NCBI GenBank assembly: GCA_003164045.1
Contig: PLRU01000059.1
Coordinates: 6,669-70,668, forward strand
DNA length: 64,000 bases
DNA from: Candidatus Lustribacter telmatis
GTDB lineage: Bacteria; Vulcanimicrobiota; Vulcanimicrobiia; Vulcanimicrobiales; Vulcanimicrobiaceae
Direction: 5' to 3'
In this document: in pieces, positions 2,707 through 24,338 of the stretch
How the letters are laid out: each line of letters starts with the position of its first letter
Position numbering within the stretch: position 1 is the first letter of the stretch
Notes under the pieces: generated by a model
The model's database searches: none
The model's input: only the letters and a program-made list of their open reading frames with translations
Told to the model about the DNA's origin: nothing
Position numbers and translations under genes: made by a program

Positions 2707-2755
2707 GGGGTCCCTTTCAGAGGGCTTTCAGATTTCGGTGTGAGAGTGAGGAAAA

Positions 2756-3370: not shown

Positions 3371-3391
3371 GCGCGTTCCTGTTGCCGTCGC

Positions 3392-3426
3392 CTCCGGTGC
3401 ACTCGCGCGAAGCGGGTGCACCGGAG
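3392..3426. terminator. bidirectional hairpin between convergent genes
   Basis: CTCCGGTGCAC and GTGCACCGGAG form a perfect 11-bp stem that can extend inward by about four more pairs (one G-T wobble), leaving a five-base loop. It lies between the stops of two convergent genes, where it would serve both. There is no clear T-tract on either side, so termination may depend on the hairpin alone or on Rho. Confidence 0.65.
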
Positions 3427-3438
3427 CGGGTGACGCCA

Positions 3439-4917: not shown

Positions 4918-5009
4918 CGGGGCGGCCTCCGGACTTCTGAGCTGGGGCTACGCGCCTTCTCCAGGGCCGCGGCAAGCCCATTCGGGCCCCGGCGGCGAAG
5001 GGGCCGGAC

Positions 5010-6618: not shown

Positions 6619-7269
6619 GTGCAGCGCCGCGCATTCGTCTTGGGCGCCGTGACGGTGCTGGCGCTCTCGCCGGCCGCACCGGCGTTCGCGCAAACGGCGC
6701 TCGCGCCGAGTCCGCTGCCGAGCCCGCAGTCGATTACGGATCTGGTCTCCGGCATGATCGAGGCGAGCCGGCTCGCGGCCGGTGACGTTTCGATCGTGCA
6801 CCAATATGGTGCGAACCTCGGCATGCCGAGTGCCGACATCGTCGCCTTCGAGATTCAGTACGAGCGGCTCTCCAGTTCGGCCAACGGATTGCTCGCGGCA
6901 CTCGCCTTCCAAATCGAAGGCAAGGACCCGGTGAACGAGGCGGCGCTGCGCGCGCAGGCCGCGACGATTCTGGCCAACACGAAAGCGCTCGATGATTCGC
7001 TCGCGGCGGTGCAAGCCGCCGCGCAAGCCCAGCGTCAGTCGACGGCGGGCACGCGCGGCGGATTCGATTTCGGCAAGTTTCTCTCGAGCGTCTTTCCGAT
7101 CATCAGCCCGATCGTGGCGATGCTCAGCAGCGGCGTCGACTTCAAGAAGAAGGTCGACGATATGGCCGTCTCCGACCGCACGTCACTGGCCACGCGCATT
7201 CGCGCGAACTACTGGCCGGATGTGAAGACCGCTACGGGGACGACGGGTGCGCAGCCTGCCGCAAAATAG
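6619..7269 (+). CDS. secreted protein of unknown function
   Basis: The gene begins with GTG one base after the mdlC stop and encodes 216 residues. It has an RR-containing signal peptide (QRRAFVLGAVTVLALSPAAPAFAQ, quoted in part), so Tat or Sec export is possible. The mature part is Ala-rich and helical, with a hydrophobic stretch (VFPIISPIVAMLSSGVDF) near the C-terminus. It recognisably matches no family I know. Its 3' end overlaps the caspase-TPR gene by 23 nt, suggesting translational coupling and a shared role. Confidence 0.6.
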   Translation: MQRRAFVLGAVTVLALSPAAPAFAQTALAPSPLPSPQSITDLVSGMIEASRLAAGDVSIVHQYGANLGMPSADIVAFEIQYERLSSSANGLLAALAFQIEGKDPVNEAALRAQAATILANTKALDDSLAAVQAAAQAQRQSTAGTRGGFDFGKFLSSVFPIISPIVAMLSSGVDFKKKVDDMAVSDRTSLATRIRANYWPDVKTATGTTGAQPAAK

Positions 7270-8884: not shown

Positions 8885-9549
8885 GCAAACCGGTTCGTGA
8901 AGAGGGCCCATTTACTCGTCGCTCAACCAGCGAACGTGTCGGACAGCTCATTCGGGAGCGCCTTGCAACCGGGGCACTTCGGCCGGGCGATCGCGTCGTC
9001 GAAGTTGATATCGCGCGAATGCTGGGCGTGAGTCGCAGTCCGGTGCGGGAGGCGCTGAGCCGGCTTGAGTTTGAGGGCGTGCTCGTGAGCGAACCGAATC
9101 GCGGTCGCTATGTGGCTCCGTTGGCCTCGGAACGCCTTCAACAACTCGTCGACTTTCGGCTCGCGCTTGAAGAACTCGCGGTTCGGAGTTTCGCGCGCTA
9201 CGCCGGCGAGGGCGATTTTCTGCAACTCCTTGCCGCCGTGCGGACGCTTCGTGCGACTGCGACATCAGAACTCAACAGCGCGATCCAGGCCGATCTTACC
9301 TTTCACCGGCTCATCGTTGCGCTGGCGAGAAATCGACCGCTGCAGTCGGCATACGCGGCGTTACTGAGTGAATTCCAACTATCGATACGCCTTACGACTC
9401 AGCACTATAGTTCGGTGGAGGAACTCGCGCTCGAGCACGAACGGCTGATCGAGGCGCTCCGCGAGCGACGCACGGATGACGCGGTCGCGCTAATGCGAAG
9501 CCACATTCTCCACGGACACGATCAGTTGCTTGCCGAGCTCGGCGGTTAA
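8881..9549 (+). CDS. GntR-family transcriptional regulator, FCD type
   Basis: The 222-residue protein has an N-terminal winged helix (RVGQLIRERLATGALRPGD, then MLGVSRSPVREALSRLE as recognition helix) and a C-terminal all-helical FCD ligand-binding domain (FHRLIVALARN, HERLIEALRER) that usually binds a carboxylate via a metal. The GTG start overlaps the previous stop (GTGA), yet its position at the edge of the nucleobase cluster makes it the likely regulator of that cluster. Its stop codon overlaps that of the convergent dioxygenase gene. Confidence 0.88.
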   Translation: MSKPVREEGPFTRRSTSERVGQLIRERLATGALRPGDRVVEVDIARMLGVSRSPVREALSRLEFEGVLVSEPNRGRYVAPLASERLQQLVDFRLALEELAVRSFARYAGEGDFLQLLAAVRTLRATATSELNSAIQADLTFHRLIVALARNRPLQSAYAALLSEFQLSIRLTTQHYSSVEELALEHERLIEALRERRTDDAVALMRSHILHGHDQLLAELGG

Positions 9550-10517
9550 GATTTCTCAATCAAGGTACGATCGAGGCGAGCCGAGAGGTGCTCGCCTGCG
9601 ATGACGGGTGCGAAGAGTGGTTCGTTGCTGTTTTGCGCCGAGGGAAGACAGGTGACCTCGGTTTCGCTGTTCGGTTCGCAGAAGAACGCGATCGAATATC
9701 GCGAGCGCTGCGCGCGCGCTCCGCTCGGGACATCGACGCGATGAGGGGTCGAACGGAAATCACAATTCGTCCATTGCTGCATCAGGTCACCGATGTTGAT
9801 CAGCACAGTGCCTGGAATCCACGGCGCGGTTAACCAACGTCCACCGGCCGAAAGAACTTCGAGCCCGGCGGTTGGATCCTGGAAAAGCAGGGTCAGCGTT
9901 CCGAAATCCGTATGCGATCCAACTCGCATTTGACCCGCTAACACGGCGTCGGATACTGGTGGATAATGTAGAAGCCGCAAGATGTTGTTCTGGCCGTGGC
10001 GTTCGACGAAATACGACTCCGGCAGCCGGAAGTTTATCGCAAATGTGCGGAGCACGTCGTTTGCAACGGCCGCACAGCGGGCATGGAACGTGGCGAAGTC
10101 GTCTACTAGAGCCTGTACGGCCGGTGCAAATGTCGGTTCGTCGCTGCGCGCGGACGCAAAGGCGGCTCGGTAGTAACCGTCGCCGCGGAAAAGATCGAAG
10201 GCTTCCTTGATGTCGCTTGGCGTTGACGAGTCTTCGTGCTCGCGACCCCGCGGAACGTATCCGCAGCGGAGGTCGGCGTTTGCGCGGCGCGCGCGTACCA
10301 ACGGCTTCTTCGCCGCGGCGGGAAGATCGAAGAACGTGGCCATACTTGCCAAGAGGTGTTCGACGTCGGCTTGCTTGATTTCGATGCCGCGCAAATAGAC
10401 GAAACCCAGCGTTCGAGCGATGGCACAGATGCGCGCCGAGACCGCGACACGGCTCGTCTCATTCCCGTGAGTGAACGCCGCAAAATCGACAATTGGGATA
10501 TCCGATTGGACGTTCAT
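9546..10517 (-). CDS. 2-oxoglutarate/Fe(II) dioxygenase, thymine 7-hydroxylase-like (paralogue A)
   Basis: This is a 323-residue IPNS-family oxygenase. The iron triad is visible as HTD in VGSHTDFGTLTLLFQD and the distal His in STPHRV. The Arg that binds 2-oxoglutarate is in RYSIAFF. The stretches GYVPRGREHED, DIKEAFD and RLLHYPPV parallel, from memory, those of fungal thymine 7-hydroxylase, which oxidises the thymine methyl group stepwise. It is a close paralogue of the gene at 15949 in this cluster. It is transcribed away from the TonB receptor and convergent with gntR. The substrate is inferred from context, not proven. Confidence 0.85.
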   Translation of the reverse strand: MNVQSDIPIVDFAAFTHGNETSRVAVSARICAIARTLGFVYLRGIEIKQADVEHLLASMATFFDLPAAAKKPLVRARRANADLRCGYVPRGREHEDSSTPSDIKEAFDLFRGDGYYRAAFASARSDEPTFAPAVQALVDDFATFHARCAAVANDVLRTFAINFRLPESYFVERHGQNNILRLLHYPPVSDAVLAGQMRVGSHTDFGTLTLLFQDPTAGLEVLSAGGRWLTAPWIPGTVLINIGDLMQQWTNCDFRSTPHRVDVPSGARAQRSRYSIAFFCEPNSETEVTCLPSAQNSNEPLFAPVIAGEHLSARLDRTLIEKS

Positions 10518-10821
10518 GAGGATCCGGCCATCGGTCTACGTACGTGGCGCAGTCACGCCGTTCCCTCAAGAAATGCTGGACAAATGTCCACTACTCGCGT
10601 TACGCGCCGCCCGTTTTATCCAACGCGACGCATCGCGCGGCGCGCGACTTCGGGAATGTACTGATTTCGAACAAGTGCGGTAAATCTGCTGGTCGACCGT
10701 ACTTCCAAATGGCTAATGCGCCGGCAGACGGCGCGCCTTAACGTAGCAAGCACGGGTTGCTTGGCGTGCCACTCGCATGTGGCTTTTGGAGTTGTGCGTG
10801 TATTCGAACTGGCTTTCAGCC
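10518..10821. other. divergent regulatory region between dioxygenase A and the TonB receptor
   Basis: About 300 bp separate the divergent starts. I see no credible gene in it; the short ORFs in the track are shadows. It holds a 14-bp palindrome (annotated separately) and a small hairpin AGCAA...TTGCT around 10743-10760. I could not pick a convincing -35/-10 pair in either direction, but promoters for both the minus-strand dioxygenase and the plus-strand operon must lie here. Confidence 0.5.
10577..10590. promoter_or_regulatory. candidate operator palindrome TGGACA-aa-TGTCCA
   Basis: A perfect 6-2-6 inverted repeat sits 60 bp from the minus-strand dioxygenase start, in the divergent region that controls the cluster. 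The core GGACAA recurs twice in the other regulatory region of the cluster (19218 and 19260). It is a reasonable candidate site for the GntR regulator, but this is inference from position and symmetry only. Confidence 0.4.
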
Positions 10822-13602
10822 ATGCGAAATGGTTGTGGTGTGTTTGCTATTGGTCTCGGCTTGTATCTAGCCATGAGTAGTGCGCCGGTAGGTGCGGCGG
10901 AGGCTGGCGCGCCGGGCGACGGTGCAGCGACGTTGAGCGGCATCGTTCGCACGCAGGCAGGGGGAGTGGTCTCCGACGCTCGGGTCGATGCGAGCGGTCC
11001 GGTTCACGGCGCTGCGACGACCGATGGAGCCGGTGCATTTACGCTAACGCTCGCGCCGGGACTCTATCGTGTGGTTGTGTCCAAACCCGGATATCTGCCG
11101 GCAACATTGCGAGACGTTACGCTGGCCGCGGGCCAATCACAGGCGGTCTCGATCGCACTCGCGCAACCCGATCTGAGCTCGCTTCGGACGATCGGTCGGG
11201 TATCGGCGACCGGCCAGGCCGGTTCCTCGATCAACGTGGGTTCCGCGACCACGTCGTTTCTCGGCGCGCAGGCGTTCGCTTCGCTCGCAAATCCCCAAAT
11301 CAACGATGTCTTGCAGCACGTGCCGGACGTCAATATCGAACGTATGGGCAGCCAACCCGACACGGCAATTATCGTCGGGGGCGCTCAGCCGTATGAGACG
11401 CAATCCCTCATTGACGGCCATCCCGTTGCGCTCGGGCAATATGGCGTCTGGCTCAGTCAATATTTCCCGTCGTTCCTTGTCGGCGGCGCCGAGGTGCAGT
11501 CGGGGCCCGGGAACACGACGCCGTTTGCAAACATCGCCGTCGGCGGCACGGTCAATCTCCTCACACCGGCATTTACCAAACGGCAAACCGGCGAGTTGGT
11601 GGTCGGCACGGATAACTATGGCTCGCAGTACTCGAGCCTTTTGACGACCGGCTCGGTGGGCCGTGCGTCCTACGTCTTTGGCCTCGGTTACGGCAGCAAC
11701 AACGGTCCGTATTTCCAGAGCAATCACTGTTCCGTTACGCCGGACAATCCGGCCAATACGAATACGGCGGCTTCCGTCGGCATCATCCAATTTTGCGGCG
11801 ACGCGAGCGGATCGCTTTTCGAGCGCGGCGAGCTGTTCAAGGTGAAATACGATTTTTCCGATGCCACGTCATTTGAGGCGGGGTTCGTTGGTGCTCAAGG
11901 CGGCTACATTCCGCAGGGCATCTCGTACGGGGTCTATCAGGGTGTGACTACCGTAGTCGAATGTCTCCCCTCGCAACCGTTGGAATGCACGAACCCGGCC
12001 AACGCCGGATTGGTCGGCAAGTCCATCCCATCGTATGTGTGGTACCCCGGTGTGGCCGTGTACAATATGCAGCCGATCTTCGACGCACAGTTTCGCACGA
12101 CCATCGGCAACAACACATTGCTGCTTCGACCGTACGCCTCGAACATTCAGCCTGATTATATTGCGGGCGTCGGCGAGGGAGGCTATGCTCAATTCTATTC
12201 GCCCGTCGGTACGGTGCCATCGATATCGCCCGGCACGCCGATCCCCAACGGCGGAAATAGTCTGCCCGGCGGCGGGAATGCCTTCGAGCAGTTATGCACC
12301 GTCGGCTTCAACCCATACGGCTACCACCAGGTCAATAGTCCCATCAATACGATCGTCGTTACGAACGGGCAAGAAGAATGCTTTCAGGTGCCGTTCGTCC
12401 AGTACGAAATCGACAAGCTCTACGGGGGAACGGCGTCGTTCATTCATCCGATGGGCGACGGGTATCTCAACTTCACGTACGACACGCACGCGACCGACAC
12501 GTTCGCGTATTACAGCTCTCCGGCAAACATTGCGGTACCCGACACGACCGAACGCTATACGACGTTCTCGTTGACCGGCGAGGTCGCCGCGACGCGGAAT
12601 CTCTCGTTGAGCGCCGGCTTGTACAACACGATATGGAAACTGCTTGGGTCGCAAGCCGTGATCGACCAAACGACGCAACAGGCCTATTTGGTCGGCATTA
12701 CACGAACCCTGGCGCGCTTCGATCCGCATCTCGCGCTCGTGTTTCGCCCGGGCCGCAACGTGTCGTATCGGCTCTCGTACGGGACGTCGGAAACCTTCCC
12801 GTTTGCCGGACAGGTCAGCGGGCTGCCGTCGTATCAGCCGCCGGCCGCATCGTCGAACTATCAGGCATATCTGTTGCAGAAGAACCCGTACTTGAATCCC
12901 GAGCGCAGCGTCGCGTTCGACCTCGGCGCCGAAACACGGCTCCGTCGGGACATGACGGCCGGCCTCGATATCCAGGACACCACGATTCACGACGTCTTCG
13001 AACCGCTGACATTTGCTTCGGCTACTCCGAATACGACGGTCACGGAGCCCATCAACGTCGCGCAACTCCGTTTGCAATTGGCGACGCTGAAATTCGCGTA
13101 CGCGCCGCCCGTTGGGTTCGGGTTCAACCTCTCGGCCACGGCCGAACGGGCAATCGTCAACGGCATTCCGCCCTCTGTGTATGCGAATGGCCCGGCGCTG
13201 CCGGCCAATGCCGTTCAAATTTGCGGAAACGGCCAGGTGTATCCAGACAACCCGGTCTGCATTCCGTATCTCAAAGGGTACGGCCAGTTCAGCTATACCT
13301 GGCACAACGGGACGTTCGCGTCCCTCGGCGTCGACTACGAAGGCGTAAACAACAGTTACCTTCAGCCGCCGTTCGCACAGGTCGATGCCACCGTACGTAA
13401 GCCGATCACGCGATCGCTGGAGTTCCAAATCGCATTTCAGAACCTGCTCAATACGAATAACTTCTACAACCTGCCGTACTTCGGCCAGGGCGTGCCGTTG
13501 ATCGCCGGTTCGGGAAGTGGCTTAACCTCGGAACCGTCGACGTATGTCCCCGCGCCTCCACGTACCGTGCGAATTCAACTGCGTTACCATCTCGGACGCT
13601 GA
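10822..13602 (+). CDS. TonB-dependent outer-membrane receptor with N-terminal carboxypeptidase-regulatory-like domain
   Basis: This is the first gene of the five-gene operon and encodes about 926 residues. I chose the ATG at 10822 because it begins a good signal peptide (MRNGCGVFAIGLGLYLAMSS); the track start is 15 codons upstream. After the signal comes an Ig-like regulatory domain (SGIVRTQAGGVVSDARV), then a plug domain (PDVNIERMGSQPDTAIIVGG, VGGTVNLLTPAF), then a long beta-barrel ending in TVRIQLRYHLGR. Such receptors import scarce substrates across the outer membrane using TonB energy. Being tightly followed by permease, deaminase and dioxygenase genes, it probably takes up the same nucleobase-like compound. 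Confidence 0.85.
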   Translation: MRNGCGVFAIGLGLYLAMSSAPVGAAEAGAPGDGAATLSGIVRTQAGGVVSDARVDASGPVHGAATTDGAGAFTLTLAPGLYRVVVSKPGYLPATLRDVTLAAGQSQAVSIALAQPDLSSLRTIGRVSATGQAGSSINVGSATTSFLGAQAFASLANPQINDVLQHVPDVNIERMGSQPDTAIIVGGAQPYETQSLIDGHPVALGQYGVWLSQYFPSFLVGGAEVQSGPGNTTPFANIAVGGTVNLLTPAFTKRQTGELVVGTDNYGSQYSSLLTTGSVGRASYVFGLGYGSNNGPYFQSNHCSVTPDNPANTNTAASVGIIQFCGDASGSLFERGELFKVKYDFSDATSFEAGFVGAQGGYIPQGISYGVYQGVTTVVECLPSQPLECTNPANAGLVGKSIPSYVWYPGVAVYNMQPIFDAQFRTTIGNNTLLLRPYASNIQPDYIAGVGEGGYAQFYSPVGTVPSISPGTPIPNGGNSLPGGGNAFEQLCTVGFNPYGYHQVNSPINTIVVTNGQEECFQVPFVQYEIDKLYGGTASFIHPMGDGYLNFTYDTHATDTFAYYSSPANIAVPDTTERYTTFSLTGEVAATRNLSLSAGLYNTIWKLLGSQAVIDQTTQQAYLVGITRTLARFDPHLALVFRPGRNVSYRLSYGTSETFPFAGQVSGLPSYQPPAASSNYQAYLLQKNPYLNPERSVAFDLGAETRLRRDMTAGLDIQDTTIHDVFEPLTFASATPNTTVTEPINVAQLRLQLATLKFAYAPPVGFGFNLSATAERAIVNGIPPSVYANGPALPANAVQICGNGQVYPDNPVCIPYLKGYGQFSYTWHNGTFASLGVDYEGVNNSYLQPPFAQVDATVRKPITRSLEFQIAFQNLLNTNNFYNLPYFGQGVPLIAGSGSGLTSEPSTYVPAPPRTVRIQLRYHLGR

Positions 13603-13614
13603 GGGACGACCATC

Positions 13615-14595
13615 GTGCAGTCACACAGGTCTGAGATCCCGGTCATCGATCTCTCGCCGGCCCGGTGCGGATCGGCCGAGCTCGCGTCGCTCGCGCGTGA
13701 AATAGGAGCAGCCGCGCGGCAGATCGGGTTTTTCACGGTCGTCAATCATGGCATCCCGCCGGGCCTCTGCGCTGACGTGCTCCGCGTGTCCCGTGCGTTT
13801 TTCGCCTTGCCCGAAGCGGCGAAGGAGCGCATCTCATTCGAACACTCCCCGCAATTCTATGGTTTTTCACCGATGGGCGCCGAGCAGCTCCATCCCGACC
13901 GTCCGGGCGATCTCAAAGAATCCTATAACATGGGTCGCGACCTCGCACCCGACGATCCCGATGTGATTGCGGGTAAGCCATTCCATGGACTAAATCTTTG
14001 GCCCGATGCCGCGGAGTTCCGCGAAACGTTGCTGACGTACTTTACTGCTGCGCACGCCCTTTGCGTCGCGCTGCACCGCGCGGTTGCGATCGATCTTGGC
14101 GTCGAACCTAATTTCTTCGACGCGAAACTCGATCGCACGCTGGGCGTGCTGCGTCTGCTGCATTACCCGCCGCATCGGGGCCATTTCGATGACGTTCTTT
14201 ATGGAGCTGCGCCGCACACGGACTACGGCAACATCACACTGCTCATGCAAGACGACGCCGGCGGACTTGAAGTCCAATCGCGCGACGGTCACTGGGTCGC
14301 CGTTCCGCCGGTTACCGGCGCGCTCGTATGCAATATCGGCGATGCTTTGATGCGCTGGAGCAACGACACCTATATCTCGACCCCGCATCGTGTGGTAAAT
14401 AGATCCGGTCGCGAGCGTTACTCGGTGGCGTTCTTTGGAGATCCGAACGGTGACGCCACGATCGAGTGCCTGCCGCAATGCAGCTCGGTCGAGCGCCCGC
14501 CGAAGTATGCACCGATCGACTATGCCGACTACCTCGCGCGCAGATTGGCAGAAACCTACCAGAGGCCACTCGCGACCGGCGTCGAGACGGTGTAA
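13615..14595 (+). CDS. 2-oxoglutarate/Fe(II) dioxygenase (paralogue B)
   Basis: This 326-residue IPNS-family oxygenase starts at GTG 13615 with GAGGGA upstream, 12 bp after the receptor gene. Iron ligands are HTD in APHTDYGNITLL and His in STPHRV; the 2-oxoglutarate Arg is in RYSVAFF. It shares IGFFTVVNHGIP, LRLLHYPPH, CNIGDALMRWSNDTY with the gene at 18194, forming a second subfamily distinct from paralogues A and C. The RWSNDT segment also resembles fungal thymine 7-hydroxylase. It lies between receptor and permease, so a role in oxidising the imported substrate is likely. Confidence 0.85.
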   Translation: MQSHRSEIPVIDLSPARCGSAELASLAREIGAAARQIGFFTVVNHGIPPGLCADVLRVSRAFFALPEAAKERISFEHSPQFYGFSPMGAEQLHPDRPGDLKESYNMGRDLAPDDPDVIAGKPFHGLNLWPDAAEFRETLLTYFTAAHALCVALHRAVAIDLGVEPNFFDAKLDRTLGVLRLLHYPPHRGHFDDVLYGAAPHTDYGNITLLMQDDAGGLEVQSRDGHWVAVPPVTGALVCNIGDALMRWSNDTYISTPHRVVNRSGRERYSVAFFGDPNGDATIECLPQCSSVERPPKYAPIDYADYLARRLAETYQRPLATGVETV

Positions 14596-14602
14596 GGTGC
14601 CG

Positions 14603-15952
14603 ATGAAATTACGGGTTGAGGAGAGCGGAGCGTCCGTAGTCGCGCAGGGTGTCAGCGCAGAGCATCAGTCGATGCCGCTCGAGCATGTGTTCTGGAGCCA
14701 CTTCTCGCGGAACCTCGGCTCATCGGGTTGGGTGATCGGCGTCCTTGCCGCAGCGCTGGGTTTGGGCTTCTGGTGGGGGCTGGCAGCGATCCTAGTCGGA
14801 AATGTCCTGGGCTCGATCCCCGTTGCGTTCTGCGCGGTGATGGGTCCGAAGACCGGCCTGACGCAGATGGAGGACTCTCGCTTCGCGTTCGGCCAAGCGG
14901 GCACGCGGCTTCCGTCATTGATCAACTGGTTGTGTTGCGTGGGTTGGGACGCCGTCAACAACGTTCCATCGACCATTGCCTTAGTCGCGCTCGTCGCGAT
15001 GAGCGGATTCTCCGCGCCATTCTGGGCTGCGCTTGCGTTCTTAGCGACGCTCCAACTGATCGCTAGTATGTACGGACACGACGTCGTGCAACTGCTGCAG
15101 AAGTATTTGGGATATGCGCTCTTGGTGATTTTCGGAATCGTCGGGGCAATGGCCGTCGCGAAGGGCGGCAGCATATCGCCTCCGGCGCAGCCGGCAACAC
15201 TCGCGACTTTTCTACTCGCCGTCTCGCTGATCGCGAGCTACAACCTCGGCTGGGCGCCGTATGCCGCCGATTACACGCGATACCTACCGAAGGCGACGCC
15301 ATCGCACAAGATCTTCGGCTTGAGTTTCCTTGGGATGATCGTTTCGGGCATCGCGATCGAACTGTGCGGCTTTCTCACCGCCAGCAAGATTCCCGACACG
15401 TCTCCAACCGCACTCATCAAGAGTATCACCGACCTCACCGGCGGCTTTGCCCCGCTCGGCCTCTTCGCACTCGCGATCTCGTCCGTTGCCGTAAATTCGC
15501 AGAACGACAATACTGCCGCCTATAGTCTTATCTCGGCGGGCGTGAAGCTACCGCGGTGGGTTTCCGCCATCGTCACGGCCGGTCTCGGCTTTCTGCTTGC
15601 GGTCGTCGGCGCCGGACAATTTGCGAGCCTTTACTCAAACTATCTCGTCGTGCTCGTTTACTGGATTTCACCGTGGGTCGGAATCGTTCTCGCAGACTGG
15701 TGGCTTCACCGTAGCGGCGACACGCCATATGCTCGTGGCTGGGGAGCGGGTGCCACGATCTTCGTCGTCGTCACGTTACTGACGATCCTGCTATTTTCGT
15801 CGACATCGGCGTACACGGGTCCAGTGGCAAAGATGTTGGGCGGCACCGACATCGGCTATTTGGTCGGATTCTTTGCTGCGGCTGGAGCCTATCTCGTTTG
15901 GCGAATGCCGCGCGCCGCTTCGGCGACGATGGCCTATAAGGAGCTTCTATGA
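14603..15952 (+). CDS. codB: NCS1-family nucleobase permease (CodB-like)
   Basis: This integral membrane protein of about 449 residues has roughly twelve hydrophobic segments. It carries NCS1 marks seen in E. coli CodB: GPKTGLTQMEDSRFAFG after the second helix, LPSLINWLCCVGW, and NSQNDNTAAYS in the middle. NCS1 carriers import cytosine, uracil, thymine-like bases, allantoin or hydantoins with a cation. The start is ATG 14603 with AAGG upstream (GTG 14597 is possible). The stop overlaps the next start as ATGA. Pairing with codA mirrors the enteric codBA operon, supporting a cytosine-type substrate. Confidence 0.82.
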   Translation: MKLRVEESGASVVAQGVSAEHQSMPLEHVFWSHFSRNLGSSGWVIGVLAAALGLGFWWGLAAILVGNVLGSIPVAFCAVMGPKTGLTQMEDSRFAFGQAGTRLPSLINWLCCVGWDAVNNVPSTIALVALVAMSGFSAPFWAALAFLATLQLIASMYGHDVVQLLQKYLGYALLVIFGIVGAMAVAKGGSISPPAQPATLATFLLAVSLIASYNLGWAPYAADYTRYLPKATPSHKIFGLSFLGMIVSGIAIELCGFLTASKIPDTSPTALIKSITDLTGGFAPLGLFALAISSVAVNSQNDNTAAYSLISAGVKLPRWVSAIVTAGLGFLLAVVGAGQFASLYSNYLVVLVYWISPWVGIVLADWWLHRSGDTPYARGWGAGATIFVVVTLLTILLFSSTSAYTGPVAKMLGGTDIGYLVGFFAAAGAYLVWRMPRAASATMAYKELL

Positions 15953-16917
15953 GTGTGGAATCCGAAATTCCCGTTATCGATTTCGCCGGCTTTAGCGCTA
16001 AGAGTTCGAGCCGGAAAAGCGAAATCGCGCTCCGGATTCGCGACGTGAGCGCAAAGCTGGGCTTCATTTACTTGTCTGGGACCGGGATCTCGCAAGAGTA
16101 CGTCGATCGCATGTTCGCGCAATCGAGCGCATTCTTCAATCTTCCGGAAGCGCAGAAGGACGCGCTGTTTGAGGCGCACCGCGTAAACGCCGACTTGGAG
16201 TGCGGTTACGTGCCGCGGGGCCGGGAGCATGAAGACGCGCAGGCGCCGAGCGATATCAAGGAAGCATTCGACATTTTTCAGCGAGAGGGGTACATTCGCG
16301 TGGCCTTTCCTCGCACCACGGACGATGCGAGCGTACCGGAAACGATCATGCCGTTCGTTGAAGCTTTCGGCTCATTTCACACGCTCTGCGCGAGCGTCGC
16401 AAACGACGTACTCCGGGCTTTCGCTATCGGTTTCGAACTGCCGGAAACGTACTTTGTGACCCGCCATGGCAAAAACAGCACGCTGCGGTTGCTGCACTAT
16501 CCGCCGGTTACGACCGCCGCGCTCGACGGTCAAATGCGTGTCGGCTCGCACACGGATTTTGGCACCATGACCTTGCTCTTTCAGGATCCGAGCGGCGGAC
16601 TCGAGGTCCTCTCCGCGGATGGGCGGTGGTTGCGCGCTCCCTCGATTCCCGGCACGGTCCTGATCAACATCGGCGATTTGATGCAACAATGGACCAATCT
16701 CGAATTTCGTTCGACGCAGCATCGCGTTGCGATTCCGACCGACGCAAGCATCGGGCGCTCGCGCTTCTCGATCGCCTTTTTCTGCGAACCAAACAACGAG
16801 ACCGAAGTCGCGTGCCTGCGGGGCGCGAACAACAGCGAACGGCCACTATTCGAACCGGTATTTGCCGGCGATTATCTGCGCGGCCGGCTCAACAGCACCC
16901 TCATCGCGCGAGCATAG
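15949..16917 (+). CDS. 2-oxoglutarate/Fe(II) dioxygenase, thymine 7-hydroxylase-like (paralogue C)
   Basis: This 322-residue enzyme is a close paralogue of the minus-strand gene at 9546. They share CGYVPRGREHED, SDIKEAFD, RLLHYPPV, MRVGSHTDFGT, GDLMQQWTN and FFCEPN. The iron triad is HTD plus His in STQHRV, with Arg in RFSIAFF. It is translationally coupled to codB (ATGA overlap) and ends 2 bp before codA, so it is the dioxygenase most directly tied to the deaminase. Oxidation of the 5-methyl group of thymine or 5-methylcytosine is the working hypothesis. Confidence 0.87.
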   Translation: MSVESEIPVIDFAGFSAKSSSRKSEIALRIRDVSAKLGFIYLSGTGISQEYVDRMFAQSSAFFNLPEAQKDALFEAHRVNADLECGYVPRGREHEDAQAPSDIKEAFDIFQREGYIRVAFPRTTDDASVPETIMPFVEAFGSFHTLCASVANDVLRAFAIGFELPETYFVTRHGKNSTLRLLHYPPVTTAALDGQMRVGSHTDFGTMTLLFQDPSGGLEVLSADGRWLRAPSIPGTVLINIGDLMQQWTNLEFRSTQHRVAIPTDASIGRSRFSIAFFCEPNNETEVACLRGANNSERPLFEPVFAGDYLRGRLNSTLIARA

Positions 16918-16919
16918 CG

Positions 16920-18203
16920 ATGCTCGACTTGGTCGTGCGCGGAGCGAACCTTCCAGATGGGCGCAACGGGTATGACATCGGCGTCATCGGCGGGAAGATC
17001 GTCGAGATCGCTCCGCAACTCGCGGCACCCGCGGCTCGCGAAATCGACGCGCGCGGTCGGCTAGTGACGCCTCCGTTCGTCGATAGCCACTTTCACATGG
17101 ATGCGACGCTCAGCGTCGGCCGGCCGCGTTTCAATGAATCAGGTACGTTGCTCGAAGGCATCGCGATCTGGGCCGAACAGAAGCCGCTTTTGACGGCGGA
17201 AGACGTTCGCGAACGGGCGCTGGAGCTCTGCCGCTGGGCGATAGCGCGCGGAAACCTCGCGATTCGCACGCACGTCGATATTTGCGATGACCGGCTACTG
17301 GCGGTCGATGCGTTGCTCGACGTCCGGGAAACGATGGCGCCGTACATCGATCTGCAACTCGTCGCATTTCCACAAGACGGATTTCTGCGCGATGCCAGCG
17401 CGCGCGTCAATTTGTTGCGAGCGCTCGACCGCGGCGTAGACGTCGTCGGCGGAATTCCCCACTTCGAGCGTACGATGGCGGACGGCGCGGCGTCGGTCCG
17501 CGAACTGTGCGAAATCGCCGCGAAGCGTGGATTGCTCGTAGACATGCACTGCGACGAGACCGATGACCCCCTTTCCCGGCACGTTGAGACGCTGGCGGCC
17601 GAAACGATGCGGCTTGGCCTTCACGGGCGCGTAACGGGATCTCACCTCACCTCGATGCATAGTATGGACAACTATTATGTTAGCAAGCTGCTGCCGCTGA
17701 TGCTCGAGGCTGGTGTGCACGCCGTCGCCAACCCGCTGATCAACATCGTAATCCAAGGACGTCACGACACGTATCCGAAGCGTCGCGGGATGACACGCGT
17801 CAGCGAAATGGCGGCGATCGGTATCAACGTCTCATTCGGCCACGACTGCGTCATGGATCCATGGTACAGCTTGGGCTCTCACGATATGCTTGAGGTGGCC
17901 CACATGGCCGTGCACGTCGGCCAGTTGACCGGTCGCGAGGAGATGCGCGGAGCGTTTATGAGCGTGACTGCGAACGGAGCGCGCACGCTCGGTCTAGCCG
18001 GCTACGGGTTGGAAGTCGGAAAGAATGCCGATCTAGTCGTCTTGCAAGCGGCCGACCCGATCGAAGCGATTCGTTTGCGAGCCAACCGCCTATGTGTGAT
18101 TCGTCGCGGCAACGTCATCGCCGAGTCGCCCGCGGTTGAGTCGCAGATCTTTATCGGAGACCGCGCGCGGCGCGTGGACTTCGGCGCGGGCGCTCAGTCG
18201 TAG
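16920..18203 (+). CDS. codA: cytosine deaminase, CodA type, with the 5-position discriminating Asp replaced by Cys
   Basis: This is a 427-residue amidohydrolase starting at ATG 16920, two bases after the dioxygenase stop. It follows E. coli CodA through most of its length: DSHFHMDAT (metal His pair), GTLLEGIAIWAEQK, VAFPQDG (substrate Gln), DMHCDETDD (metal His and catalytic Glu), TGSHLTSMHS, QGRHDTYPKRRG and FGHDCVMDPWY. The metal Asp (D313) is present. The next residue, D314 in E. coli and known to limit activity on 5-substituted cytosines, is Cys here. CodA homologues lacking that Asp have been shown to deaminate 5-methylcytosine to thymine, so that is the predicted reaction. The last 10 bp overlap the convergent dioxygenase gene. 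Confidence 0.9.
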   Translation: MLDLVVRGANLPDGRNGYDIGVIGGKIVEIAPQLAAPAAREIDARGRLVTPPFVDSHFHMDATLSVGRPRFNESGTLLEGIAIWAEQKPLLTAEDVRERALELCRWAIARGNLAIRTHVDICDDRLLAVDALLDVRETMAPYIDLQLVAFPQDGFLRDASARVNLLRALDRGVDVVGGIPHFERTMADGAASVRELCEIAAKRGLLVDMHCDETDDPLSRHVETLAAETMRLGLHGRVTGSHLTSMHSMDNYYVSKLLPLMLEAGVHAVANPLINIVIQGRHDTYPKRRGMTRVSEMAAIGINVSFGHDCVMDPWYSLGSHDMLEVAHMAVHVGQLTGREEMRGAFMSVTANGARTLGLAGYGLEVGKNADLVVLQAADPIEAIRLRANRLCVIRRGNVIAESPAVESQIFIGDRARRVDFGAGAQS

Positions 18204-19114
18204 CCCGATTTGAAGCGCGAGCGAGCGAAATCCCCAAAGAGAATCGGCGCGTGTTTCGCCGGGCGGTCCGGACCTTCACACGACGGTAGGCACGATACGA
18301 CGGCATCGCCGTGGACATCTCCGAAGAGAGCGACCGAGTGCCGATCGCGCCCGGTGTCGTTGAACACGCGATGCGGCGTAGATACATAGGTATCGTTGCT
18401 CCACCGCATCAAGCAGTCTCCGATGTTGCACATCAATGCGTCCGCTCGCACTTCGGTTGGGATCCAGTTCCCTTCCCGGGTCCGTAACTCGAGGCCCTGG
18501 TTGTCCTGCGCCAACAGCGTGAGGTTTCCGAAATCGGTATGCGGCCGAATGCCCCAACCATCTCGTCCTTTGGGATGAGGCGGATAGTGCAGCATCCGCA
18601 GATTCACCATGCGGGGAAAGAACGGTTTGAAATAGTCGCTGTCGGCTCCGAGGTCGACCGCAATCGCCTGATGGAGTCGGATGATGAGTTCGGCGCCGCG
18701 GTCGTAGTACTCGGTCAAGCTCTCGCGAAAGCCCGCTAGATCGGGCCAGCGACGCGGCGCAAAGATCGACTTACCGGCGAGCAGATCCGGGTCGTCGGCC
18801 GAGATCTCCGGGCCGATGTCGAACGCTTCGTGCGGTTCGCCATTCTCCCGGTCAAGCCGCGTATAGCCGCAGAAATAGCTTTCTATCGCAACGCGCTCCT
18901 TCGCCTCGAGCGGCATCGCGAAAAAACGTTGGGCTTCGCGGATGACTTCCGCGACGTTCCGTTCGAGGCCGTGGTTTACGATCGAAAAGAATCCTATCGA
19001 TCGTGACGCAGCACCGATCTGACGACCGACGTCTTCGAGATCGGAGCGTTTGCCGGAGCTGAGACCGCCGACGTCGATGGTCGGAACCTGGTGGGCGGAG
19101 ACGAGGACATCCAC
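18194..19114 (-). CDS. 2-oxoglutarate/Fe(II) dioxygenase (paralogue D)
   Basis: This IPNS-family oxygenase of about 306 residues belongs to the same subfamily as paralogue B (IGFFSIVNHGLE, LRMLHYPPH, HTDFGNLTLLAQD, CNIGDCLMRWSNDTYVSTPHRV in part). The 2-oxoglutarate Arg is in RHSVALF. I place the start at GTG 19114, which has GGAGG seven bases upstream; the track start (19192) adds 26 residues with no family match. It converges on codA and is driven from its own promoter in the 19115-19298 region. Confidence 0.85.
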   Translation of the reverse strand: MDVLVSAHQVPTIDVGGLSSGKRSDLEDVGRQIGAASRSIGFFSIVNHGLERNVAEVIREAQRFFAMPLEAKERVAIESYFCGYTRLDRENGEPHEAFDIGPEISADDPDLLAGKSIFAPRRWPDLAGFRESLTEYYDRGAELIIRLHQAIAVDLGADSDYFKPFFPRMVNLRMLHYPPHPKGRDGWGIRPHTDFGNLTLLAQDNQGLELRTREGNWIPTEVRADALMCNIGDCLMRWSNDTYVSTPHRVFNDTGRDRHSVALFGDVHGDAVVSCLPSCEGPDRPAKHAPILFGDFARSRFKSGYD

Positions 19115-19162
19115 GTGGCTTCCTCCGGGTGAAAGCGCTTCTCGGCGACGCTCTTTTCCGCT

Positions 19163-19192
19163 ACTATAAGCGGCGCGTTGCACGCCGCGCAA
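19163..19192 (-). promoter_or_regulatory. putative promoter for dioxygenase D with embedded inverted repeat
   Basis: Reading the minus strand, TTGCGC (19192-19187) is followed after 18 bp by TATAGT (19168-19163), giving a transcript with a leader of about 40 nt and the GGAGG site. The spacer contains a perfect inverted repeat GCGGCG-n7-CGCCGC (19170-19188), a natural place for a repressor. The rest of the 184-bp intergenic region carries two GGACAA motifs at 19218 and 19260 but no gene. Confidence 0.45.
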
Positions 19193-19287
19193 GCACTTTC
19201 CGGGATGTTTTTCCGGCGGACAATTGCGGTGCAGCGGAAGCGAAACAACTTGTTCTTTTGGACAATGCTACAACGAGCTTCGCGGGC

Positions 19288-19293
19288 TATACT
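19288..19293 (+). promoter_or_regulatory. -10 element (TATACT) implying a leaderless transcript
   Basis: TATACT ends only five bases before the GTG start at 19299, so transcription should begin at or within a base or two of the start codon. There is no Shine-Dalgarno at a workable distance. A good -35 is not obvious, which would fit activator dependence. The gene at 22088 shows the same leaderless arrangement. Confidence 0.45.
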
Positions 19294-19298
19294 AGGGT

Positions 19299-20933
19299 GT
19301 GAACCTCGGTCGTCTGGGTATTGTGCTCGCAGCGCTGCTGCTTACATCGAGTTGCGCGAAAGCGGGACTGTCGGCCGAAACCGGACGCCATCCGTGGACG
19401 CAACCGCATGTACTGCGGATCGTCGACAGCGAAGAACCGGATTCGCTCAACCCGATCGTCGGATACGCGCAGACCGACGTGCACGTCTCGATGTTCTGGG
19501 CCGGATATCTGTTCAATTGGAGCGACGGCAACCGCTTCGTTCCCGAGCTTGCTACGGTTCTTCCGACGCTTGCCAACCACGGGGTGTCGGCAGATGGCAG
19601 AACGATCACCTACCATCTGCGCCGCGGCGTCAAGTGGCAAGACGGCGCGCCGTTCAGTGCTGACGACGTCATCTTTACGTACCGCGCCGTGATGAATCCA
19701 AAGAACGCGGTGCAATCGCGTAGCGGCTACGAGCTGATCACTCGCATCGATAAAATCGACGACGCGACGATCGTCATTCACTTGAAGCGCCCATGGGCGC
19801 CGTTCGTCGCGACGTTCTTCACGATGTCGGCCGAGACGTATCCCGTACTTCCCGCGCACCTGCTCGCTCGCTATCCGGATATCAATCGCATCGCATACAA
19901 CGAGCGGCCGATCGGTACGGGACCCTTCAAGTTCGTGAAATGGGATCATGGCCAACAGATCCGTTTCGTCGCCAATTCAAACTACTGGCGAGGCCGGCCG
20001 AAACTCGATGAAGTCGACTACCAGATCGTCCCGAACGAGAACACGATTCTGACGATGCTCCGGACACATGAGGCGGACCTAGAGTTAGGCGCGTCCCAGT
20101 CGCTGATCGCTTCGTATCAACGCATCGAAGGCGTCCGCGTCGAGCTCACGCCCGACAACCAGTACGTCTTTTACGACTTCAACTTGGCGAATCCGATCTT
20201 AGCCGATCTGCGGGTTCGGCAAGCGCTGGTCTTGGCGACCGATCGGCAAGCCCTAATCGCCAACGTGACGCATGGCGTGCAGATCGCGGGCGAAGGGGAT
20301 CAGGAGCCCTATCTTGGTTGGAGCGATGCGAAGATTCCGTTGACGCCCTACGATCCCGCCCGTGCGCGTGCGATCCTGGATGCCGATGGTTGGCGCGTGG
20401 CAGCCGACGGCATCCGCAGGAAGAACGGCCGACGCCTTGCGCTGACGATGGCCTATCAGACCGGGACCGTCGCCGCAGCCAGCAGCGTGCTCCTCACGCA
20501 GCGGTGGTGGTACGAAATCGGCGTCGATCTCATGATCAAGGACTATCTGGCGCCGGTCTTCGGCGGCAGCTACAATGCTGGCGGCATCCTGTTAACGGGT
20601 AAGTGGGACGTGGCCCTGACCCGCTGGTATAACGGCGTCGATCCGGACGACTCGATCCTCTATCGCTGCGATCAATTTCCGCCGCAGGGCTGGAACATTT
20701 CGCGTTTCTGCGATCCGCGTGTGGAAGCTGCCGAAGACGAGGCGATCGCTTCGAACGACGTCCGAACCCGAGCGCGGGCCTACGGCACGATCGCGTCGCT
20801 CCTGGTAGCCGAACGTCCGTTCGAGACGTTATGGTTCGTGCGGAACGTGAACGTTTACAACAGCGATTTGAAGAATTTTCGCCCCGCTCATGCAGTCACG
20901 GAAATCTGGAATCCCTGGCAGCTTGATATCTAA
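19299..20933 (+). CDS. ABC transporter solute-binding lipoprotein, SBP_bac_5 (DppA/OppA-like)
   Basis: This 544-residue extracytoplasmic binding protein has a signal peptide ending in the lipobox-like LLTSSC. Family-5 hallmarks are SEEPDSLNPIV, VFTYRAVMNP-type text (DDVIFTYRAV), GTGPFKFVKWDHG, and the late DDSILYRCDQFPP. Members bind peptides, nickel chelates, sugars or other solutes. There is no permease or ATPase beside it; a DppB/DppC pair without binding protein lies 33 kb away at 53144-55045 and could be its partner. Its placement beside the dioxygenase cluster suggests a possible link to the same substrate, but this is only positional. Confidence 0.8.
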   Translation: MNLGRLGIVLAALLLTSSCAKAGLSAETGRHPWTQPHVLRIVDSEEPDSLNPIVGYAQTDVHVSMFWAGYLFNWSDGNRFVPELATVLPTLANHGVSADGRTITYHLRRGVKWQDGAPFSADDVIFTYRAVMNPKNAVQSRSGYELITRIDKIDDATIVIHLKRPWAPFVATFFTMSAETYPVLPAHLLARYPDINRIAYNERPIGTGPFKFVKWDHGQQIRFVANSNYWRGRPKLDEVDYQIVPNENTILTMLRTHEADLELGASQSLIASYQRIEGVRVELTPDNQYVFYDFNLANPILADLRVRQALVLATDRQALIANVTHGVQIAGEGDQEPYLGWSDAKIPLTPYDPARARAILDADGWRVAADGIRRKNGRRLALTMAYQTGTVAAASSVLLTQRWWYEIGVDLMIKDYLAPVFGGSYNAGGILLTGKWDVALTRWYNGVDPDDSILYRCDQFPPQGWNISRFCDPRVEAAEDEAIASNDVRTRARAYGTIASLLVAERPFETLWFVRNVNVYNSDLKNFRPAHAVTEIWNPWQLDI

Positions 20934-20941
20934 TCCGCCGC

Positions 20942-21370
20942 CTAGCGTTCGTTAAGGAGAAAACGCGCCTGCGGGCCCTTGCCGTCGCTCGCCTGGGCGA
21001 CGACGACGACATCTTCCGGCGTCACCGTCCAAATCGTCAGCTTGATCGTGGCCTTGCCTTTGACACTGGCAACATCGTAGGCACTCGTGTCGACGCGCGC
21101 CACCGTATCCGGCTGGTCGGAGGCGGGGAACTCGCAGCCCTTGGTGATGCAGCGAAAGCGGATCTTGGTCTTGGCCGGGACGACGTCCACCACCAGCGCT
21201 TTGTCGAACTTCGTTTCATAGCGGTCCGCGCGGGCCGCAACCCACGCGCGTGCCGTCTGCGGCGTTCCGGAGCGGATCGTGAGCCGCACGAGTTCGCTCG
21301 CCGGCGCCGCCGTAAGCGAGCAGCCGGTGATGACGGCAGCGGCGAAGCACATCCGCGCATGAACGTTCAC
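20942..21370 (-). CDS. small predicted lipoprotein
   Basis: The long track ORF (20942-22045) merges antisense sequence with this short gene. Starting at GTG 21370 gives 142 residues with a short lipoprotein signal (MNVHARMCFAAAVITGC, lipobox ITGC); ATG 21352 is an alternative. The mature part has a Cys pair (RCITKGCEF) that could form a disulfide and otherwise shows no recognisable motif. It lies downstream of the GntR gene on the same strand, 37 bp away, and may be co-transcribed. Confidence 0.6.
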   Translation of the reverse strand: MNVHARMCFAAAVITGCSLTAAPASELVRLTIRSGTPQTARAWVAARADRYETKFDKALVVDVVPAKTKIRFRCITKGCEFPASDQPDTVARVDTSAYDVASVKGKATIKLTIWTVTPEDVVVVAQASDGKGPQARFLLNER

Positions 21371-21407
21371 TCGCAACGAAGTTGCACGCCGCCGGAGCCG
21401 CCCCCCG

Positions 21408-22064
21408 CTAATCCGGCTCGGACAGCCAAGCTCGAAAGATGTCATACTCTCGGGCAAGCGCGGACTGCGCCGCGACGCCGTCGTGGAGCTTACACGCGTG
21501 CAGCAACTGTTTGTGCACGGCCACCGTGCGCTGCAGGAAGTCGCTGAGGTGAGCGCCGCCCGGTTCATCGTAGCGCAGGCGCCATTTATTGACGGTCTCC
21601 AGCATGCGCGGGCGTCCGGCCGGGGCCAGGAGCAGTGTGTGAAAATGCAGGTGTAAACCGCGTACGTCATCACCCCGGCGCGCGCGGCCGATGGCTTCGA
21701 GCGTTTCGCTCGCGCGGCGAACGTCGTCGAGCGATTGTCGAGGAAGCGCATGATCGAGCAATCGCGATTCGATGCATTCGCGCATTTCGACGATCTCGAG
21801 CAAGTCCGACGACGGCAGCGCGAGTGCGACCGTTGCGCCCTTGTTCGGAAGATAGACGATATAGCCGTCGGCTTCGAGCGTGCGCAGCGCTTCACGTACG
21901 GGAATCCGGCTAAGGCCGAATTGAGCGGCGAGTTCCGCTTGAACGAGCGTGCTGCCGGGCGGCAGTTCACCGCACTCGATCTGCGAGCGCAGAACATCGG
22001 CGATCTGATTCGCCGTGCCTTTGATGACCGGGTGCCGCTTTGCACCCGTGCTTGACGGCGTCAC
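21408..22064 (-). CDS. GntR-family transcriptional regulator, FCD type (second)
   Basis: This protein of about 218 residues has an N-terminal winged helix (LRSQIECGELPPGSTL, LAAQFGLSRIPVREALRTLE) and an FCD effector domain (HLHFHTLLLAP with the metal-binding His cluster). I take GTG 22064 as start: the track ATG at 22100 would coincide with a predicted -35 box, while GTG 22064 sits exactly where a minus-strand promoter would start transcription. It is divergent from the aspartic protease gene, and both promoters overlap a palindrome it may bind itself. Confidence 0.82.
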   Translation of the reverse strand: MTPSSTGAKRHPVIKGTANQIADVLRSQIECGELPPGSTLVQAELAAQFGLSRIPVREALRTLEADGYIVYLPNKGATVALALPSSDLLEIVEMRECIESRLLDHALPRQSLDDVRRASETLEAIGRARRGDDVRGLHLHFHTLLLAPAGRPRMLETVNKWRLRYDEPGGAHLSDFLQRTVAVHKQLLHACKLHDGVAAQSALAREYDIFRAWLSEPD

Positions 22065-22100
22065 CGCTTGATTGTATACATGTTTACATGACACGGTCAA
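22052..22100. promoter_or_regulatory. overlapping divergent leaderless promoters sharing one palindromic -10
   Basis: Plus strand: TTGACG (22052-22057), 17 bp, TATACA (22075-22080), then ATG at 22088. Minus strand: TTGACC (22100-22095), 16 bp, TATACA (22078-22073), then GTG at 22064. The two -10 hexamers overlap inside the 8-bp palindrome TGTATACA (22073-22080). Both start codons lie 7-8 bases from the -10, so both mRNAs should be leaderless. Only one polymerase could occupy the site, and a GntR dimer bound there would shut off both genes. Confidence 0.65.
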
Positions 22101-22981
22101 TATGTCTGATGACGATTGCGGCGCTCGTGGCCTTCACTGCGGCCGGCGCAGGAGCTACCGACCGCGCTCCGCTGCCCATCGCCCATATTGCGTATCAACC
22201 GCGCGAACGGCTAATGGCGGTTTCCGTCCACATCACCGGGTATGAATCGCGCGCGCTTACGTTCGTCGTCGACACGGGTGCGCGGCACACCGTGATCGAT
22301 CGGGCGGTTGCGCACGCGCTGCGCGTGCGCGTCATTTCGGCCGACCGCATGGCCGGCGCCGGCAAAGGCACCGTGACAATGCAACATGCGGTTCCGCTAA
22401 CGTTCACGATCGGCAATGCGCGGCTCACCGTCACCGACCCGTGGATTCTCGATCTGAATCATCCGGAAATGGCCGGGCATCTCGACGGACTTCTCGGGGC
22501 GGACTTTTTCGCGAAGTACATCGTACGGATTGATCCGGTCGCACGGACGCTGGAGGTCTATCTTCCGGAAACAATTATCGACGATCGCGCAGGATCGGCA
22601 ATACCGCTCTACGATATCGACAACCGGCTCTTCGTCGATGCGAAACTCACCGTCGGCTCGACGATTCAAACCCATCGGGTACGCATCGATACGGGATCGG
22701 GCGATGCTCTCTCCGACGACATCGTCCGTTTGGCAAAATATCAAGTGCGGGCACGTCAGGGCGTCGGCCTTGGGCAATCGTACGTCGATGTGTCGGGACT
22801 GATCGATCGCGTGCAGCTCGGGCCGTACGAAATTTTCCGCTCCTGGGGCGCGTCGAACAGCCGCCCCGCGATGGGCATGGAATTACTGCGCCGGTTCACG
22901 TGCACCGTCGATGTGCCGCACGGCCTCTTACGCCTTCGCCCGAATGCTCGCTACCGCGATTCCGTGCCCGCCCCCCGATGA
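22088..22981 (+). CDS. secreted retropepsin-like aspartic protease
   Basis: This protein of about 297 residues starts at ATG 22088 (not the track start 22040) with a signal peptide MTRSICLMTIAALVAFTAAG. The first catalytic motif is VVDTGARHTVID. A second, RIDTGSGDALSDD, occurs in the C-terminal half, so a single chain could form a two-lobed, pepsin-like active site rather than needing a dimer. LLGADFFAKY and MGMELLRRF are family-like elements following each lobe. The natural substrate is unknown. The stop overlaps the next start (ATGA). Confidence 0.75.
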   Translation: MTRSICLMTIAALVAFTAAGAGATDRAPLPIAHIAYQPRERLMAVSVHITGYESRALTFVVDTGARHTVIDRAVAHALRVRVISADRMAGAGKGTVTMQHAVPLTFTIGNARLTVTDPWILDLNHPEMAGHLDGLLGADFFAKYIVRIDPVARTLEVYLPETIIDDRAGSAIPLYDIDNRLFVDAKLTVGSTIQTHRVRIDTGSGDALSDDIVRLAKYQVRARQGVGLGQSYVDVSGLIDRVQLGPYEIFRSWGASNSRPAMGMELLRRFTCTVDVPHGLLRLRPNARYRDSVPAPR

Positions 22982-23469
22982 GCACCTTCACCGAACGTGA
23001 CGCTACGCCTGACGATGCCGCTTGGATCGTGGCGCTCCATGCCGCCCCGCACGCGCGCCCGTTCTTGCAGCAGCCCACGGAGCAGGGGGTCCGAGCATCA
23101 CTGGGCCGCGAGAACTACGCCGAGCGCATCGTGCTCGACGACGCGGGCGAGCGGGTGGCGCTGTGGCGGGCAAGCCTCGACGAGGCGTGGATTGCGGAGC
23201 TGCGCACGCTCGCTGTCGCGTTGCCCGGCAAAGGTGCCGGAACGTGGGCATTGCGGCGTGCGCTCGCGTGGGCGTTCGGCGAGCGCGGCGTCCATCGCGT
23301 TTTCTTGTACGTGACCGCAGCCAATGCGCGCGCGCGGGCGTTGTACGAACGGTACGGACTGACGTTGGAAGGCACGGAGCGAGACGGCTTCCGGTCCCCG
23401 GACGGCACGTTCGAAGACCTCTGTCATTACGGCATACTCGAAGACGAGTGGAGAGACACACGACGATGA
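22978..23469 (+). CDS. GNAT-family N-acetyltransferase
   Basis: This 163-residue protein starts at ATG 22978, which overlaps the protease stop. The acetyl-CoA binding region is recognisable as TLAVALPGKGAGTWALRRAL, followed by GVHRVFLYVTAANARARALYERYGL typical of the RimI-like C-terminal half. The acceptor is unknown. It is coupled by ATGA overlap to the aldo/keto reductase downstream, within a run of five overlapping genes on the plus strand. Confidence 0.82.
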   Translation: MSTFTERDATPDDAAWIVALHAAPHARPFLQQPTEQGVRASLGRENYAERIVLDDAGERVALWRASLDEAWIAELRTLAVALPGKGAGTWALRRALAWAFGERGVHRVFLYVTAANARARALYERYGLTLEGTERDGFRSPDGTFEDLCHYGILEDEWRDTRR

Positions 23470-24338
23470 GCACCCCATCCACCAGCGCCGCCGCGGCGGC
23501 CGGCACCCTGACCATCGGGGGCGATCTTACCGTGAACCGGATGGGCTTCGGTGCGATGCGCATCACCGGCACGGGCATCTGGGGTCCGCCTGCCGATCGT
23601 GACGTTGCGAAGAACGTGCTGCGCCATGCGGTCGCGAGCGGCGTGAACTTCATCGACACTGCCGATTCGTACGGACCGGACGTGAGCGAAGAGCTGATCG
23701 GCGAAGCGCTCGCGCCCTATGCGGCGGGACTCGTCATTGCGACGAAGGGCGGCCTCACGCGGTCGGGTCCGAACGAATGGGACAACGATGCCCGGCCCGT
23801 GCATTTGAAGCAGGCGCTCGAAGGCAGCTTGAAACGCCTGCGCCTCGATTGCATCGATCTCTATCAGTTGCACCGGCACGATCCGAAGGTGCCGTATGCG
23901 GAATCGGTCGGCGCGCTGGCCGAGATGCAGCGCGCCGGGAAGATCCGTCACATCGGCGTCTCGAACGTCAGTCTCGAGCAGTTGGCGCAAGCGCGCACCA
24001 TCGTCACCGTCGTCTCCGTGCAGAACCGCTACAACTACGAAGACCGCTCGTCTGAAGACGTGCTCGACGTGTGCACCAAGGACGGACTCGCGTTTCTCCC
24101 CTGGGCACCCGTCGGCGGCCCGAATCCGATGAACGTGCAACGGCTCGAGAAACTCGCTCGCGATCATAGCGCGACGCCGCTGCAAATCGCGCTTGCGTGG
24201 CTGCTCAAACGCTCGCCCGCGATGCTGCCGATTCCGGGTACCGGCTCGATCGCGCATCTCGATGAAAATATTGCCGCCGCGGCGCTCCACCTCAGCGACG
24301 AGGAATTCCATCTGCTAGGCGACGCGCATGCTGTTTGA
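23466..24338 (+). CDS. aldo/keto reductase
   Basis: This NADPH-dependent (beta/alpha)8 oxidoreductase of 290 residues starts at ATG 23466; the longer track ORF reads out of the acetyltransferase frame. The catalytic tetrad is present: Asp and Tyr in FIDTADSYGP, Lys in VIATKGGL, His in QLHRHDPK. The fingerprint SLKRLRLDCIDLY is also present. The IGVSNVS and late IPGTGSIAHLDEN segments bind the cofactor. It overlaps the following flavin reductase gene by 11 nt, suggesting joint action on carbonyl or enone compounds. Confidence 0.87.
   Translation: MSTPSTSAAAAAGTLTIGGDLTVNRMGFGAMRITGTGIWGPPADRDVAKNVLRHAVASGVNFIDTADSYGPDVSEELIGEALAPYAAGLVIATKGGLTRSGPNEWDNDARPVHLKQALEGSLKRLRLDCIDLYQLHRHDPKVPYAESVGALAEMQRAGKIRHIGVSNVSLEQLAQARTIVTVVSVQNRYNYEDRSSEDVLDVCTKDGLAFLPWAPVGGPNPMNVQRLEKLARDHSATPLQIALAWLLKRSPAMLPIPGTGSIAHLDENIAAAALHLSDEEFHLLGDAHAV

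Follow-up and report, generated by a model that had tools for sequence, protein, structure and literature searches.

A gene at positions 16920–18203 (+) of the window, the 64,000-nucleotide stretch of Candidatus Lustribacter telmatis DNA analyzed here, encodes a CodA-type deaminase of the PRK07572 subfamily in which a cysteine, the consensus residue of that subfamily, stands at the place of Asp314 of E. coli CodA. Taken as a whole, the explanation we consider probable is that this enzyme is a metal-dependent free-base deaminase that would convert cytosine to uracil and 5-methylcytosine to thymine, although we infer its substrate range, the direction of flux, and the role of the cysteine. In the CodA mechanism, a His/Asp-bound metal would act with the Glu217-equivalent as proton shuttle and the Gln156-equivalent reading the base, while Cys at 314, by replacing a charged Asp that leaves little space around the pyrimidine 5-position, would open the C5 pocket and make room for a methyl group. 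The gene would be last in an operon for nucleobase uptake, and the bases that the enzyme releases could feed the reductive uracil and thymine pathway encoded elsewhere in the host genome.

A CodA-type deaminase with cysteine at position 314

The open reading frame is intact, running from an ATG at 16920 to a stop codon at 18201–18203 and encoding 427 aa. In profile searches, the best model was NCBIfam PRK07572/NF005748, which scored 762.7 bits against a cut-off of 438 and covered residues 1–422 of 427, and the score for the CodA subfamily PRK09230 was below its cut-off (445.1 vs 483 bits). Among solved structures, phmmer ranked E. coli CodA (1K6W) first (E 1.3e-113), then Klebsiella 4R7W, and then AtzC; identity to E. 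coli CodA was 45%. The top fold matches of an AlphaFold model (mean pLDDT 87, built from 22 sequences) were CodA (TM 0.92) and the Klebsiella 5-methylcytosine deaminase (TM 0.88–0.89), and this model bears on the fold only, which it confirms. The original prediction that the gene is CodA-like thus agrees with its best solved relative in both sequence and fold. Judged by sequence, the protein is a member of the known PRK07572 subfamily and not a canonical CodA, resembling that family in its full-length score, its Cys at 314, and its GHDCVMDPWY signature.

The phmmer alignment of the query SFGHDCVMDPWY over CodA CFGHDDVFDPWY is gap-free nearby and, with the column comparison, places Cys310 (codon TGC, 17847–17849, +) at CodA Asp314, directly beside Asp309, the counterpart of the CodA metal ligand Asp313. 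Column by column, CodA residues H61, H63, F154, Q156, H214, E217, H246, D313, D317, and W319 are identical in the window protein, and the only differences among the positions checked fall at T66, E157, H281, L282, D314, and F316. The protein therefore keeps all metal and catalytic residues of E. coli CodA, but has Cys for Asp314, Met for F316, Ala for T66, and Asp for E157. Conservation extends to all 88 subfamily members for H61, H63, H214, E217, H246, D313, and the base-reading Q156. It had been proposed that the Cys occupies the D314 position and that the other active-site elements are kept, and both points held, the first in the gap-free alignment and the second in the identity of the metal, catalytic, and base-reading residues. 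The PDB matches, by their fold-search names, include the engineered CodA variants 1R9X (D314G), 1R9Y (D314A), and 1R9Z (D314S).

To place this residue among relatives, we gathered sequences from plasmid records, a scan of GTDB genomes, and the window's own phylum, and counted the column on an alignment of 99 sequences. Position 314 was Cys in 87, Asp in six, Ser in four, and Gly and Ala in one each; in the window's own clade (n = 88) it was Cys in 85, Ser, Gly, and Ala once each, and Asp in none. All Asp314 sequences belonged to the CodA part of the tree. In a quick tree search with SH-aLRT support, the window gene lay inside the Cys clade, paired with its sister (98) and adjacent to a sequence from an alphaproteobacterium (96); the residue at 314 required five changes over the whole tree set. 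Two distant relatives from the phylum, at 36–40% identity and with a GQDC motif, also have Cys, as do 85 of the 88 clade members, so the residue is a subfamily trait. The notion of a precise specificity switch in a canonical CodA accordingly finds no support in that form: the protein is only 45% identical to CodA and belongs to a different subfamily, in which Cys is the consensus. An isolated mutation arising by chance or from sequencing error was likewise rejected, as the same Cys occurs in 85/88 relatives. In both L005 and L006, loci of distant CodA-like amidohydrolases with the GQDC motif, the neighbors include a cyclase-like protein and a large conserved protein.

5-Methylcytosine and pyrimidine catabolism

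According to its abstract, the 2014 Hitchcock study identified three natural 5-methylcytosine deaminases by their loss of Asp314, the other two besides the Klebsiella enzyme reportedly being Rsp0341 and NCgl0075. The window protein also has a residue other than Asp there, Cys310, and by residue it joins the published class of CodA homologs lacking Asp314. As described in the part of PMC6186785 that cites Hitchcock 2014, the Klebsiella deaminase has Ser at this site (numbered 315 there); CodA has essentially no activity on 5-methylcytosine with its Asp but gains it when the Asp is mutated to Ala, which bears out the earlier claim that the D314 site governs tolerance of the 5-substituent. CodA D314A also serves as a marker with improved activation of 5-fluorocytosine (PMC4283509). 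We saw the Ser directly in a 4R7W-like Klebsiella plasmid gene, in which FAQDS aligns at this site.

The Klebsiella enzyme, Kpn00632 (PDB 4R7W/4R85/4R88; Hitchcock et al. 2014), has the CodA fold and catalytic residues in common with the window protein, and both have a small residue for Asp314, Ser in the former and Cys in the latter. Both are also linked to base permeases, on the Kpn00632 side in related plasmid loci. However, the two are 42% identical and belong to separate clades, that of Kpn00632 having Gln at H312 and Gln at F316, and close relatives of Kpn00632 adjoin a PucR-type regulator, whereas the window gene adjoins 2OG oxygenases. Our literature search found no Cys-314 enzyme with a measured 5-methylcytosine rate or specificity. 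From the residue, it is plausible that Cys at 314 could relax the C5 pocket, and it need not exclude cytosine; the slight variability of the site within the subfamily (Cys, Ser, Gly, Ala) counts against the explanation we favor.

Gene neighborhoods support pyrimidine bases as substrates of the subfamily, without separating cytosine from 5-methylcytosine. In 86 clade loci, the deaminase adjoins a BMP-type nucleobase ABC transporter in 45, URC1/URC4 in 11, a dihydropyrimidinase or M20 amidohydrolase in 15, and a RutR-like regulator in 10. At least one pyrimidine-catabolic marker was present in 27 of these loci, and the remaining 59/86 had no pyrimidine-catabolism gene of the query set within the locus DNA examined. 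In Azospirillum, a GTP cyclohydrolase II-like gene (URC1), URC4, and the genes for uracil phosphoribosyltransferase and a BMP-type ABC transporter precede the deaminase gene. In Thiomonas, it is preceded by a dihydropyrimidinase that scores over its cut-off, an M20 amidohydrolase, an ABC transporter of the NMT1 type, and a regulator that is RutR-like but scores below the RutR cut-off. Whereas PRK07572 relatives have BMP-type ABC transporter or URC neighbors, the window gene has an NCS1 permease, a TonB receptor, and 2OG oxygenases.

In the host genome, contig C102 carries PreA (658.6 bits vs a cut-off of 335) and dihydropyrimidinase (610.5 vs 393) side by side, together with a PreT-like protein and an NCS1 permease. 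The same contig encodes an aminotransferase, a nitrilase-family amidase at the place expected of beta-ureidopropionase, and a 2OG oxygenase a few kb from the PreA/dihydropyrimidinase cluster. A uracil phosphoribosyltransferase is also present in the genome, so that uracil and thymine from the deaminase could be used. URC4 was searched for in the host genome and was not found, which makes the reductive route the supported one. Amidohydro_2 had 41 matches in the host genome, a count that has no bearing on the iso-orotate decarboxylase sought.

These neighborhoods would fit equally well a plain cytosine deaminase, for which exchanging Asp314 for Cys would be neutral and 5-methylcytosine a side substrate at best: the relatives' neighbors are those of general uracil catabolism, and the wider family varies at 314 (Asp, Cys, Ser, Gly, Ala). 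Yet Asp is found in 0/88 subfamily members, so the site is not freely variable, and according to the same part of PMC6186785, 5-methylcytosine is accepted both by variants that lack the Asp and by natural enzymes with Ser. We consider a plain cytosine deaminase unlikely.

The operon and its oxygenases

The deaminase is preceded on the same strand by genes for a TonB-dependent receptor with a CarboxypepD_reg domain (10777–13602, +; Pfam), a DIOX_N/2OG-Fe(II) oxygenase that we call OxA (13615–14595, +; Pfam), a CytX/CodB-like NCS1 nucleobase permease (14603–15952, +; PF02133 E 6e-32, TIGR00800 E 1e-32 and below cut-off), and a second DIOX_N/2OG-Fe(II) oxygenase, OxB (15949–16917, +; PF14226 and PF03171). 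Since the five genes share a strand and are spaced 12, 7, −4, and 2 nt apart, they are very likely co-transcribed. Two further 2OG-Fe(II) oxygenases, both found with Pfam, flank this set: OxC (18194–19192, −), convergent with the deaminase and 44% identical to OxA, and OxD (9546–10517, −), divergent from the TonB gene and 60% identical to OxB. In all, four DIOX_N-type 2OG-Fe(II) oxygenases occur within 10 kb around one nucleobase permease. A GntR/FCD regulator (8881–9549, +) possibly controls the deaminase locus. Promoter and terminator scans at the locus gave results near chance level, and Rfam had no matches within window positions 8000–24000. Slightly upstream of the locus is a caspase-domain (Peptidase_C14) protein with TPR repeats (7247–8884), and in the adjoining region (536–6617) genes for a beta-eliminating lyase, a MetE-like C-terminal domain protein, an aldehyde dehydrogenase, and a TPP enzyme are clustered.

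Oxidation of the thymine methyl group by thymine 7-hydroxylase (T7H) is a known fungal route, and T7H is the best solved relative of both OxB (5C3P, E 4e-45) and OxD (E 4e-48). Using the residue roles listed in PMC4787775, which include the thymine-contacting Asn87 and Glu122, we found that OxB keeps the Fe and 2OG ligands H214, D216, H271, R286, and R190 as well as the stacking Phe292, and has an allowed Phe at Tyr217. OxB and OxD are thus like the fungal enzyme in fold family, Fe and 2OG residues, Arg190, and Phe292, but differ from it in the replacement of Asn87 and Asn294 and the change of Glu122 to Asp: the thymine-contacting residues are not kept in OxB, where Asn87 and Asn294 are both replaced by Glu and Glu122 by Asp, and OxD has Arg at Asn87 and Asp at Glu122. 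Nearly all bacterial oxygenases compared keep the same core, so thymine is not proven as the OxB substrate. The operon is the most unusual feature of the locus. It gives a hint that the 5-methyl group may be handled oxidatively, but OxB lacks key thymine-reading residues, and we think it quite unlikely that the operon as a whole serves uptake of 5-methylcytosine, its deamination to thymine, and oxidation of the methyl group by T7H-like oxygenases.

A genome of the same genus without the deaminase (G001; locus L117, G001:C129:24000-42000) has the same order of TonB receptor, oxygenase, NCS1 permease, and oxygenase, adjoining adenosine deaminase, the allantoinase PuuE, and an allantoate-amidohydrolase-like enzyme. 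This module is a purine counterpart of the window operon, and with the same order found beside purine hydrolases, it has the look of a set for acquiring nucleobases in general, in which the hydrolases can be exchanged. On an Acinetobacter sp. ACNIH2 plasmid (L096, 186-20942), a nucleobase symporter, the urate hydroxylase HpxO, allantoicase, and formaldehyde-detoxification genes occur together with two Rieske oxygenases and three related 2OG oxygenases, which suggests that widespread Acinetobacter plasmids encode the oxidative removal of methyl groups from methylated purines.

The deaminase might instead act on another 4-aminopyrimidine or ring substrate, such as a 5-hydroxymethylated or N-methylated pyrimidine produced by the adjacent 2OG oxygenases. 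Two such oxygenases share its operon, the Acinetobacter plasmid relatives of these oxygenases adjoin a nucleobase symporter and urate hydroxylase, allantoicase, and formaldehyde-detoxification genes, and the permease is similar to CytX, a transporter of hydroxymethylpyrimidine, as well; but the base-reading residues of the deaminase match CodA and most of its relatives have no such oxygenase nearby, and we give this substrate class only a slim chance. An AtzC-like amidohydrolase of s-triazines or other xenobiotics is highly improbable, for while AtzC is the next solved family after CodA and the Klebsiella enzyme, it scores 200 bits below CodA and reaches TM 0.80–0.83 vs 0.92.

Distribution and significance

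The nearest relative of the window gene is in a genome of the same family-level group (G029), 80% identical and with Ser at 314. It has an NCS1 permease directly upstream, a TonB receptor directly downstream, and a divergent 2OG oxygenase, and this shared synteny speaks against contamination as the source of the window gene, although contamination of the window assembly is estimated at 6.8%. Further along the sister locus (L094:13331-15436) are an ABC transporter of the NMT1 type, a protein of the creatininase family, and a RutB/biuret-hydrolase-like protein. Only these two among 149 phylum genomes examined have a close copy of the deaminase, a distribution that suggests transfer of the gene, presumably as a gain. 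The Ser of the sister might mark a recent specificity shift, a reading for which this single pair is too little.

The Asp-to-Cys replacement marks a broad, mainly proteobacterial subfamily that is annotated plainly as cytosine deaminase or amidohydrolase, and knowing the specificity of one Cys member would re-annotate many genes. The operon with its 2OG oxygenases offers a concrete place to seek a bacterial equivalent of the thymine 7-hydroxylase route of fungi. Should 5-methylcytosine be a substrate of the Cys enzymes, soil bacteria would commonly recycle this modified base.
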